Source: Verrucomicrobiaceae bacterium (GTDB taxonomy: Bacteria > Verrucomicrobiota > Verrucomicrobiia > Verrucomicrobiales > Akkermansiaceae). From it: a stretch of 64,000 nt of DNA. This document shows positions 35,384-37,808 of the stretch, in pieces. The translations under genes were made by a program, and so were the position numbers. The notes beneath the pieces were generated by a model. It had not been told where the DNA came from. It worked only from the letters and a program-made list of their open reading frames with translations, and did not search any database. The stretch lies in the NCBI GenBank assembly GCA_027484055.1, contig JAIXQH010000054.1, forward strand, positions 1 to 64,000. The letters are read 5' to 3'. Positions within the stretch are counted from its first letter, which is position 1, and every line of letters begins with the position of its first letter.

Positions 35384-36226
35384 GTGCCCTCCGCCCCCAC
35401 TCTCCACTGGGCCGCCCACAGCCACAACGGTTCCAAGAAACCTCGGAACGAAGACTCCCTCATCGTCTTCGCCTCCGATCCAAACGGCGCTGACATCCTG
35501 CCCGCCAGCGGCAGCCACCCCCTCTCTGACCACGACCTCGTTTTCGCCCTGTCAGACGGCATGGGTGGCGGAAATGCTGGCGACATTGCCTCGGCGACCC
35601 TCCTCCAGCAGATGACTCAGATCATCCCAGAAACCTTCAAAGCCGCTGCCTCAGGCCTTTTTCCAGACTCACTCGCCCACCTCTCCCACGCCCTCAACAC
35701 CGTCCACCAACAGATCAACGCCGTCGGTTCTGCCAGCCCAGACACCGCAGGCATGGCCGCCACTCTTGCCCTCACGTGGTTCACTCCAGAAAACCTCTAC
35801 CTCGCCAACGTTGGCGACTCCCGCATCTACCGCTTCCGCCACGGCGAACTCACCCAGCTCAGCCACGACCACACCGCCGCTTGGTGCCAGTGGAAACGCC
35901 AGGAAATTAGCGAAATCCAATACCGCTCCCACCCCCGCCGCTCCATTCTCTACCAAATCGTCGGCGCTGGCCGTCCCGCCCTCCATCCCCACCTCGCCGC
36001 CCTGCCCTACCAAGTCGGCGATCGCTTCCTGATTTGCTCAGATGGCCTCATCGACGGCCTCTCAGAACGCCAACTCGCGCGCGGCCTCAGCCTGTCCGGC
36101 TCCAGCCCCCACGAAATTGTCATAACTCTTTTACAACGTGCTATCGACAACTCCGGATTCGACGATACAAGCCTCATCGTCATCGACGTCGTAGCTCCTC
36201 AAAACAGCCACCTCGCCGAAGGATAA
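35384..36226 (+). CDS. PP2C-family Ser/Thr phosphatase
   Basis: 280 residues with the PP2C metal motifs in order: SKKPRNEDSL (about 17-26), FALSDGMGGGNAGD (about 54-67), YLANVGDSRIYRF (about 140) and the C-terminal DGLIDGL and FDDTSLIVI. It dephosphorylates Ser/Thr residues with Mn/Mg. Cytoplasmic: no signal or membrane helix. It follows the minimal kinase gene, and the sigma-54 promoter of glnA begins just 13 bases after its stop. A role in nitrogen control is only an inference from neighbourhood. Confidence 0.9.
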   Translation: MPSAPTLHWAAHSHNGSKKPRNEDSLIVFASDPNGADILPASGSHPLSDHDLVFALSDGMGGGNAGDIASATLLQQMTQIIPETFKAAASGLFPDSLAHLSHALNTVHQQINAVGSASPDTAGMAATLALTWFTPENLYLANVGDSRIYRFRHGELTQLSHDHTAAWCQWKRQEISEIQYRSHPRRSILYQIVGAGRPALHPHLAALPYQVGDRFLICSDGLIDGLSERQLARGLSLSGSSPHEIVITLLQRAIDNSGFDDTSLIVIDVVAPQNSHLAEG

Positions 36227-36238
36227 AACTCCCGTGGC

Positions 36239-36255
36239 TTGGCACACATGATGCT
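36239..36255 (+). promoter_or_regulatory. Candidate sigma-54 (RpoN) promoter of glnA
   Basis: TTGGCAC-ACATG-ATGCT: the -24 GG (36241-36242) and -12 GC (36253-36254) have the required 12-base distance, and the -24 half matches the consensus TTGGCAC exactly. It closely resembles the E. coli glnAp2 promoter. Transcription would start near 36266, giving a leader of about 108 bases to the glnA ATG. Confidence 0.75.
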
Positions 36256-36265
36256 AAAATCATGT

Positions 36266-36285
36266 CTGTCAGTCACTCCTGACAG
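36266..36285 (+). promoter_or_regulatory. Inverted repeat at the predicted glnA transcript start
   Basis: A perfect 7-base inverted repeat, CTGTCAG (36266-36272) and CTGACAG (36279-36285), around TCACTC. It lies at the expected transcription start and could be a leader hairpin or an operator. Confidence 0.5.
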
Positions 36286-36373
36286 GCGCGGATGTGTCTC
36301 CATTTCTTGCGCCATGTTCAGGAGAATCTGAAATCAAAACTACCGTTTATTACCCCAAATCATCACGATTATC

Positions 36374-37399
36374 ATGGCTAAATACAAATTGGAATATCTC
36401 TGGCTCGACGGTTACACCCCCGTGCCAAACCTCCGTGGCAAAACTCAAATCAAAGAGTTCGCCAGCTTCCCAACCCTCGAAGAACTCCCACTCTGGGGCT
36501 TCGACGGTAGTTCCACCCAGCAAGCCGAAGGCCGCAGCTCAGATTGCGTGCTCAAGCCCGTCGCCATTTACCCAGACAGCACTCGCAAGAACGGTGCCGT
36601 GGTGATGTGCGAAGTCATGATGCCAGACGGCTTGACACCTCACCCAAGCAACGGCCGCGCCACCATCCTCGACGATCCCGGCGCATGGTTCGGCTTCGAA
36701 CAGGAATATTTCCTCTACCAAGACGGTCGCCCACTCGGCTTCCCCGTGGATGGCTTCCCCAAGGTTGGCCAAGGCCCGTACTACTGCGGCGTCGGCTACA
36801 AATACATGGGCGACATCGCCCGCCAGATCGTCGAGGAGCACCTCGACCTCTGTCTCGACGCAGGAATCAACCACGAAGGCATCAACGCCGAGGTCGCTAA
36901 AGGCCAATGGGAATTCCAAATCTTCGGTAAAGGCTCCAAAAAATGCGCCGACGAAATGTGGGTCGCTCGTTATTTCCTCAACCGCCTTTGCGAAAAATAC
37001 GGCATCGACGTGGAATATCACTGCAAGCCACTCGGAGATTCCGACTGGAACGGCTCCGGTATGCACGCCAACTTCTCCACCGAATACCTCCGCGAAGTCG
37101 GCGGCAAGGCCTACTTCGAAGCGCTCATGGCTGCCTTCAGCGAGCATTGCGAAGAGCACATCGCCGTTTATGGACCTGACAACCACATGCGCCTCACCGG
37201 CCTCCATGAGACTCAGTCCATCGACATGTTCTCCTACGGCGTCGCCGACCGTGGTGCCTCCATTCGCGTGCCACACAGCTTCGTCAAAAACGACGCTTAC
37301 CGTGGCTACCTCGAAGACCGCCGTCCAAATTCCCAAGGCGATCCCTACCAAATCGCTTCACGGATTCTCAAGACCATCTCATTGGTGCCTAAGCCCTAA
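36374..37399 (+). CDS. glnA: Glutamine synthetase, type II (GSII)
   Basis: 341 residues, the short eukaryote-like form. LEYLWLDGY and GFDGSSTQQAEGRSSD are the beta-grasp and Asp-50-type loop; WFGFEQEYFLY, GINHEGINAEVAKGQWEFQ, GSGMHANFST and NHMRLTGLHET form the catalytic metal and glutamate site; GASIRVPHS follows. It makes glutamine from glutamate, ammonia and ATP. GSII in bacteria is mostly known from actinomycetes, rhizobia and some Verrucomicrobiota and Bacteroidota. Upstream is a sigma-54 promoter and downstream a strong terminator, so it is a single-gene unit. Confidence 0.95.
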   Translation: MAKYKLEYLWLDGYTPVPNLRGKTQIKEFASFPTLEELPLWGFDGSSTQQAEGRSSDCVLKPVAIYPDSTRKNGAVVMCEVMMPDGLTPHPSNGRATILDDPGAWFGFEQEYFLYQDGRPLGFPVDGFPKVGQGPYYCGVGYKYMGDIARQIVEEHLDLCLDAGINHEGINAEVAKGQWEFQIFGKGSKKCADEMWVARYFLNRLCEKYGIDVEYHCKPLGDSDWNGSGMHANFSTEYLREVGGKAYFEALMAAFSEHCEEHIAVYGPDNHMRLTGLHETQSIDMFSYGVADRGASIRVPHSFVKNDAYRGYLEDRRPNSQGDPYQIASRILKTISLVPKP

Positions 37400-37508: not shown

Positions 37509-37808
37509 TTAACCCGAACTCCGAAGTTGCAGGGGTGATTCGTTGGATTTTTGACCACGGATTTTACGGATTTTACGGATGATGAAGAGGTTGTGAAAAT
37601 GATTCGAAAACCTGTTTGATGCATTCTGAAATCCGTAAAATCCCTTTAATCCGTGGTTAAATTGCTGTTTTCGGGTTAACCGCGAATGGACGTCAATGAA
37701 CGCGAATGAAGCCAAATTTACCTACCCGAGCATCGGTATGGAGACCATTTGATCAAACCTTCGGTTTTGTTTCTGTTCATTCGCGTCTTTTTGCGTTCAT
37801 TCGCGGTT
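37509..37808. repeat. Cluster of nested intergenic inverted repeats
   Basis: Three inverted pairs fill the gap between glnA and corA: TTAACCCGAA at 37509 with TTCGGGTTAA at 37670; about 30 bases at 37551-37580 with 37631-37660 (motif CCACGGATTTTACGGAT); and about 34 bases at 37676-37710 with 37775-37808 (motif CGCGAATGAACG). Such repeats occur many times in genomes of this phylum. No gene is present in 37400-37889. Confidence 0.75.

Follow-up and report, generated by a model that had tools for sequence, protein, structure and literature searches.

How is the gene for a glutamine synthetase, a central enzyme, switched on in a member of the Verrucomicrobiales, and does the start of its mRNA add anything to that control? 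The question is raised by a locus in which a GSII-type glutamine synthetase gene (glnII) is preceded by what a sequence-only reading had taken to be a sigma-54 promoter, with an inverted repeat at the expected transcription start. The window analysed here is the whole stretch of 64,000 nucleotides that carries this gene, and it belongs to a genome of 4.4 Mb that is 95% complete in 70 contigs. Comparison with related genomes makes it very probable that glnII has a sigma-54 promoter, that it shares a nitrogen regulon with the genes for P-II and the ammonium transporter AmtB, and that its transcript begins with a 5' stem-loop followed by an open tract. The features on which the argument turns are these:

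35384..36226, + strand: PP2C-type protein phosphatase gene (open reading frame and Pfam), ending 12 bases before the -24 element
36239..36255, + strand: -24/-12 (sigma-54) promoter element TTGGCACACATGATGCT (sequence, plus conservation at the matching position before GSII)
36266..36266, + strand: predicted transcription start, placed from the -12 position
36266..36285, + strand: 7-bp inverted repeat CTGTCAG-N6-CTGACAG, which may fold early on as an alternative RNA hairpin (sequence and folding)
36269..36331, + strand: predicted longer RNA hairpin of the 5' leader, which cannot coexist with the 7-bp one (folding and covariation)
36332..36373, + strand: largely unpaired tract before the ATG (folding, with two weak 4-bp helices predicted)
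36374..37399, + strand: GSII-type glutamine synthetase (GlnII), 341 amino acids (open reading frame; Pfam Gln-synt_N and Gln-synt_C)

The best NCBIfam model for the GSII protein is GlnII (NF041605), matched over nearly its full length at 355 bits with a cut-off of 500. Its closest counterparts among named genomes (L105-L118, 86-93% identity) come from metagenome-assembled genomes labelled Akkermansiaceae, Akkermansia, Prosthecobacter, Verrucomicrobiaceae or Verrucomicrobia. The protein is also 81-84% identical to GSII of alphaproteobacteria (Rhizobiales, Methylobacterium), as high an identity as it has to GSII of several other verrucomicrobial families, and this suggests gene transfer between Verrucomicrobia and alphaproteobacteria. 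Downstream of glnII, two imperfect inverted repeats lie side by side (37550-37661 and 37678-37808), with arms of 31 and 33 nt that are 87% and 82% complementary and are separated by 50 and 65 nt; their appearance suggests small mobile or REP-like elements, and no further copies were found elsewhere in the window.

The geometry of the putative promoter was confirmed to the base. The element consists of TTGGCAC (36239-36245), ACATG (36246-36250) and ATGCT (36251-36255), so that GG (36241-36242) and GC (36253-36254) are spaced 12 bases apart as had been claimed, and TTGGCACACATGATGCT matches 11 of 13 scored positions in a TGGCAC-N5-TTGC-like context. Counting 12 bases on from the C of GC places the predicted +1 at 36266, where CTGTCAG begins; the perfect 7-base inverted repeat of the original claim does occupy 36266-36285, with its first base on this position. 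The ATG of GSII lies 118 bases downstream of the -12 element. The pattern YTGGCACRNNNNWTGCW occurs once in the 64-kb window against a shuffle mean of 0.07, a comparison that has to be read with the fact that the pattern was picked after the site had been seen. Across the genome, YTGGCAYN6TGCTW has 11 matches and the reversed pattern has 10. Since the motif is no commoner than its reversed control, the bare motif is not significant by sequence alone; it is its conservation and position that are significant.

Conservation was assessed in three sets of regions, each region reaching up to 400 bases upstream of a GSII gene: 55 regions from 54 genomes that share the window's genus or order, its own included (set 1); 72 further named loci (80 minus 8 duplicates), split by record titles into 26 Verrucomicrobia and 46 alphaproteobacteria (set 2); and 55 regions (58 loci minus 3 duplicates) from the family of one exceptional genome (set 3). 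An element was counted when it scored at least 9 of 13 and lay 60-155 nt before the ATG, with dinucleotide shuffles as control. It was found in 51 of the 55 regions of set 1 (19/1100 shuffles), in 25 of the 26 verrucomicrobial (8/500) and 45 of the 46 alphaproteobacterial regions (33/920) of set 2, and in 52 of 55 in set 3 (23/1080). The totals are 128/136 verrucomicrobial and 45/46 alphaproteobacterial regions against 2-4% of shuffles, which bears out the expectation of the sequence-only reading that the -24/-12 letters would be conserved in relatives; the sets come from different database releases and may share species, only loci with identical upstream ends having been removed (L031 and L130 are the same stretch).

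The exceptions are few. Under a strict pattern, L022, L031, L043, L054 and L055 of set 1 were unmatched and L008, L019 and L020 weak or misplaced; a looser pattern recovers the element in 53 of the 55 regions, and the score cut-off removes L008 and L043 (score 8). In L156 and L235, also counted as misses, the promoter falls off the contig. The element was absent from the scanned upstream regions of the GSII genes of G037 (two copies, L054 and L055), G118 and G094. One of the G037 copies carries in its place what we read as a sigma-70-like TTGACA-N17-TTATCT. When the ten closest species were aligned (window included, L008 left out), the -24/-12 letters were nearly frozen, TTGGCAYRYATGATGCT, and most flanking letters varied. 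In two of these ten, L004 and L006, the sequence further upstream is different and the promoter unchanged; the promoter thus seems to travel with GSII, and the PP2C gene is for the same reason not thought to be part of the glnII unit but a neighbour.

Genes for the sigma factor itself are widespread: rpoN is present in the window's own genome and in 57 of 59 genomes overall, as the earlier inference of RpoN control would require. Three of the 11 genome-wide motif matches lie directly before glnII, the P-II gene and amtB. In the own genome, the start of the element lies 44 nt ahead of the predicted ATG at P-II and 92 nt ahead of the ATG at amtB (this genome only), where it reads TTGGCACGGTCCTTGCT. 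Among relatives, the P-II element was present in all 30 loci taken as the best 30 of 54 genomes with a match, at 41-52 nt before the ATG in 29 of them and at 113 in L104. G037 has two P-II genes, one lacking the element and one with a weak match, which brings the P-II count to 30 of 32 regions. The remaining genome matches are of other kinds: L065, L069 and L071 lie within longer open reading frames, L067 at the start of one, and L070, L073 and L074 at 48, 125 and 177 nt before open reading frames, those after L070 and L073 having no Pfam match; no open reading frame is in reach of L068. Because rpoN is present, the element is conserved and the same motif stands before P-II and amtB, GSII can be placed in a sigma-54 nitrogen regulon: a control element common to glutamine synthetase, P-II and amtB is one of the marks of an Ntr regulon.

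Published work elsewhere is in keeping with this assignment. In Bradyrhizobium sp. DOA9, glnII (TGGCACGCGAAATGC), amtB and glnB are reported among the genes lowered in RpoN mutants (PMC13207237), glnII of S. meliloti is reported to be under NtrB/NtrC control (PMC8829014), and genes annotated ntrB and ntrC are recorded in Methylacidiphilum, another verrucomicrobial lineage (PMC5623727). In open-licence papers we found no description of a sigma-54 nitrogen regulon in Verrucomicrobia. The clean set of promoters described here leads us to predict one, and would extend to Verrucomicrobia the textbook sigma-54 nitrogen regulon of glutamine synthetase, P-II and amtB. Transcription of glnII would then run from the promoter at 36239-36255, starting at about 36266, with the sigma-54 polymerase presumably opened under nitrogen limitation by a resident sigma-54 activator.

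Which activator this may be is the next question. The own genome encodes three strong sigma-54 activators (L058, L059 and L060) besides two weak AAA matches, and all three have GSFTGA or GAFTGA in the AAA+ loop. L058 (G000:C34, 1060-2442) is an orphan, L059 adjoins a PAS histidine kinase and L060 a hybrid kinase; HTH_8 was detected in L059 and not in L058 or L060. None of them passes the curated NtrC model TIGR01818, which they match at 422, 400 and 383 bits against a cut-off of 558.6. Many genomes keep only two activators (E 1e-30), and in four small ones (G007, G031, G011 and G001; 1.8-3.3 Mb) the two are of the L058 and L059 types. The L058 type is the most widespread, with orthologues in 56 of 59 genomes, and in 67 of 74 when the query was taken from another family. 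Its receiver is degenerate in the window's genus: among 23 aligned sequences, the phospho-acceptor position holds Ala in 15 and Ser in one of the 16 from this genus, and Glu in six and Asp in one of the seven from other families, with the sigma-54-contact loop intact in all 23. In two genomes (G054:C138 and G039:C5) a sigma-54 activator gene is a near neighbour of a P-II gene, in divergent orientation.

Enhancer sites gave no lead. No conserved site was found in the alignment within 200 nt upstream, and the best NtrC-like dyads at glnII, P-II and amtB, searched with a consensus from other phyla, did not stand out from shuffled sequence (106 to 200 of 200 shuffles); the frequent GACGA dyads fall in the stretch read as PP2C coding sequence. 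The proposal of NtrC/RpoN-type control therefore divides. Its RpoN half stands, on rpoN, the conserved element and the motif common to glnII, P-II and amtB. Its NtrC half is supported only in part: there are three strong sigma-54 activators, but all three fall short of the curated NtrC cut-off, the regions searched yielded no NtrC-like enhancer site, and the most widespread activator is without the phospho-acceptor Asp in the genus.

The pattern of losses points, as a hint, to the L058 type. In G037 (96% complete) the L058-type activator and the promoter element are both absent, a joint loss that is suggestive although counter-examples exist: the element is kept where no L058 type was detected in G022, G092, G076 and G097 (90, 80, 52 and 58% complete), and G118 and G094 have the activator and lack the element. 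In G105 (95%) the L058-type activator is missing and the promoter lies beyond the end of the contig, and G033, G059 and G080 have neither an L058-type activator nor a GSII match. We regard the L058-type orphan as the more likely activator and the kinase-paired L059 type as the less likely. That an NtrB/NtrC-like L059 type does the work instead is nonetheless a real possibility, though one we hold at somewhat over a third of our belief, and it overlaps with the main reading: L059 has its PAS histidine kinase next to it, an intact Asp and HTH_8, and its type occurs in all four of the small genomes inspected, but G037 retains an L059 orthologue (60%) even though its GSII genes lack the element. 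With the L058-type orphan as the preferred activator, a larger scheme can be imagined for Verrucomicrobiales, in which GSII, P-II and ammonium transport are run by an orphan activator that has ceased to need phosphorylation and needs no conserved enhancer nearby, with a widespread stem-loop in the glnII leader as a second, post-transcriptional layer; we think this scheme as a whole rather unlikely. The degenerate receiver does pose a testable question, namely how nitrogen status is sensed in these bacteria.

The second layer itself had been suggested from the inverted repeat. CTGTCAG (36266-36272), TCACTC and CTGACAG (36279-36285) form a combination that, allowing one mismatch, occurs once in the window against a shuffle mean of 0.01, having been chosen after it was seen. 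Folded on its own, the first 35 nt give the 7-bp hairpin at -12.4 kcal/mol (z -1.8, with 11 of 200 shuffles as stable). When the whole leader is folded, a longer hairpin at 36269-36331, which uses the same bases, wins over it at -31.6 kcal/mol (z -4.2, a stability that none of 200 shuffles equals). The suggestion of a hairpin is upheld in so far as the leader has a conserved RNA structure, but the longer hairpin competes with the 7-bp one, and we would rather assign the inverted repeat to this longer predicted hairpin at the 5' end of the mRNA. The tract that follows (36332..36373) is A/C-rich and, as we read it, holds no Shine-Dalgarno sequence. In the own genome the amtB leader (L064) likewise starts with a hairpin, of 11 bp (z -2.8); the P-II leader, 17 nt by hand count, is too short for one.

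Covariation favours the longer structure. Among ten close species, the window included, its 19-pair consensus is paired in 88.9% of cells, eight pairs are changed on both sides (1/500 shuffles), and neither any of 500 shuffles nor any slid version attains its covariation score. The 7-bp hairpin is paired in 84.3% of cells in the same species, and 80 of 500 shuffles attain its covariation score. In a second genus, 22 leaders share another hairpin in the same place, in which a 4-bp mini-hairpin precedes an 8-bp basal stem that is 93.2% paired; 0/500 shuffles attain its covariation score, but 161/500 attain its count of doubly changed pairs. For all three hairpins the structures counted were derived from the same sequences. 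The second-genus alignment used 22 of 29 leaders, leaving out L256, which was folded, and six unfolded leaders (L253, L258, L260, L269, L276 and L282); a model built from the 22 (R2) finds L260 and L282 strongly and L253 and L276 weakly, does not find L256, L258 and L269, and has no match in the window's genus. In a third clade of seven leaders the consensus is an 8-pair hairpin with no double changes and an unfavourable covariation term, and single-sequence folds favour a longer hairpin. The model built from the window's clade (R1) has one match in each of 10 of 59 whole genomes, at glnII only, and all ten are training sequences; among 68 loci, it also matches L111, L109 and L110, which are not training sequences. 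R1 therefore finds the leader only in the close clade, and its single match per genome, at glnII, disposes of a multi-copy regulatory RNA.

Folding statistics extend beyond these clades. Folding z averages -1.69 across 94 less-redundant verrucomicrobial leaders and -0.27 in the stretch upstream of the promoter (Wilcoxon p 2e-7, too small a value given sequences related by descent), and z falls below -2 in 34 of the 94 leaders against 7 of 93 controls; for 32 alphaproteobacterial leaders the means are -0.69 and 0.07. In 93 verrucomicrobial leaders the first 45 nt have pairing probabilities of 0.50-0.66 against 0.31-0.45 in whole-leader shuffles, and the last 30 nt before the ATG average 0.14 against 0.41. 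This profile is partly base composition (G+C is 0.55 in the first 45 nt and 0.39 in the last 30), a bias that shuffling whole leaders leaves uncorrected and that does not affect the z values. The last 30 nt of alphaproteobacterial leaders stand at 0.45 against 0.54, with no open tract. A predicted 5' stem-loop of about 60 nt is thus supported by covariation in two clades, not in the third, and by folding statistics. If real, it gives the mRNA of a central enzyme a conserved leader structure that Rfam does not contain.

What such a leader might do is a much less certain matter than the promoter. After its first 60 or so nt, folded as the stem-loop, the transcript would run through a mostly unpaired, A/C-rich tract, at which the ribosome may load in the absence of a Shine-Dalgarno sequence; the hairpin would shield the 5' end of the mRNA and keep the start region unpaired. 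This role is a guess that we hold tentatively. That the structure keeps its position as its sequence drifts hints at a mechanical function and not at a pocket for binding a ligand.

The leader could instead be a metabolite- or protein-sensing switch (a riboswitch, an attenuator or the target of a GstI-like inhibitor) of which the two hairpins are the states, and we consider this unlikely. The two are mutually exclusive, and both are able to form in most of the ten close species; the leader also contains a weak terminator-like site at 36284-36299 on the + strand, with six pairs, three of them G-C, and the tail CCATTTCTTG; and GstI is described as a translational inhibitor of GSII in rhizobia (PMC8829014). 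Yet the covariation of the short hairpin does not go beyond shuffles in the window's clade, the T-rich tail is, on our reading of the alignment, not evident at the corresponding place in relatives, and Rfam had no match at the gathering score in the window or 20 related loci. At a relaxed threshold Rfam returned three matches to other families at chance level (E 2.5-2.8, far below gathering scores), and a known riboswitch was rejected on these Rfam results. Open-licence papers yielded no glnA leader or glutamine riboswitch in Verrucomicrobia.

Terminator-like sites in the leader number two, against 0.2 in shuffles: the one at 36284-36299 (+) and one at 36285-36266 (-), the latter being the inverted repeat followed by ACATGATTTT. 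As a terminator for PP2C the 7-bp hairpin was rejected, having no T run after it on the + strand; for the minus-strand site, the list of open reading frames shows no evident convergent gene that it would serve.

A mechanical stem-loop, our preferred if tentative reading, also has to be set against the view that the inverted repeat is a DNA operator, bound by a repressor or activator at the start site. The perfect dyad sits exactly on the predicted +1, as an operator might. Several of its pairs are, however, kept by G-U in the ten species (UG in 7/10 at columns 9-23, GU in 4/10 at columns 12-20, UG in 3/10 at columns 7-25), and this argues against an operator because a DNA dyad needs no G-U; the leader starts with other letters in other clades as well. 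An operator seems to us improbable. Least probable is that the -24/-12 site arose by chance and that glnII is transcribed from a housekeeping promoter such as TGCTAAAAT at 36252-36260, which in our reading resembles an extended -10: the sigma-54 motif does occur at chance frequency genome-wide, but the element is conserved in 128/136 regions, the ten-species alignment conserves the -24/-12 letters and not TAAAAT, and a scan of 36100-36420 found no sigma-70-type pair.

The sigma-54 promoter and its leader can be compared with four known systems. The E. coli promoter glnAp2 is likewise a sigma-54 -24/-12 promoter before a glutamine synthetase gene, but that gene, glnA, encodes a GSI and is served by well-defined NtrC enhancers, whereas the window has a GSII and no enhancer was found for it. 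Glutamine riboswitches (the glnA RNA and the downstream-peptide RNA) resemble the predicted leader in being RNAs that can precede a glutamine synthetase gene, and differ in that neither the window nor the 20 related loci gave a match at the gathering score. The rhizobial glnII genes of Bradyrhizobium, Sinorhizobium and their relatives resemble the window's in protein, at 81-84% identity, and in promoter: 45 of the 46 alphaproteobacterial regions have a -24/-12 element, 73-115 nt upstream of the ATG. The leaders of these genes, unlike those of Verrucomicrobia, have no open tract before the ATG and pair only slightly above shuffles. The control of glnII translation by GstI in rhizobia would, like a functional leader hairpin, be a second, post-transcriptional layer on GSII; gstI is described there as the divergent neighbour of glnII (PMC8829014), whereas the upstream neighbour in the window is the PP2C gene. 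Sigma-54 control of GSII in the window thus appears ordinary, like that of rhizobial glnII, and is well supported; to a promoter of this well-known kind the locus adds, as a modest new detail, a hairpin that relatives keep while its letters change.
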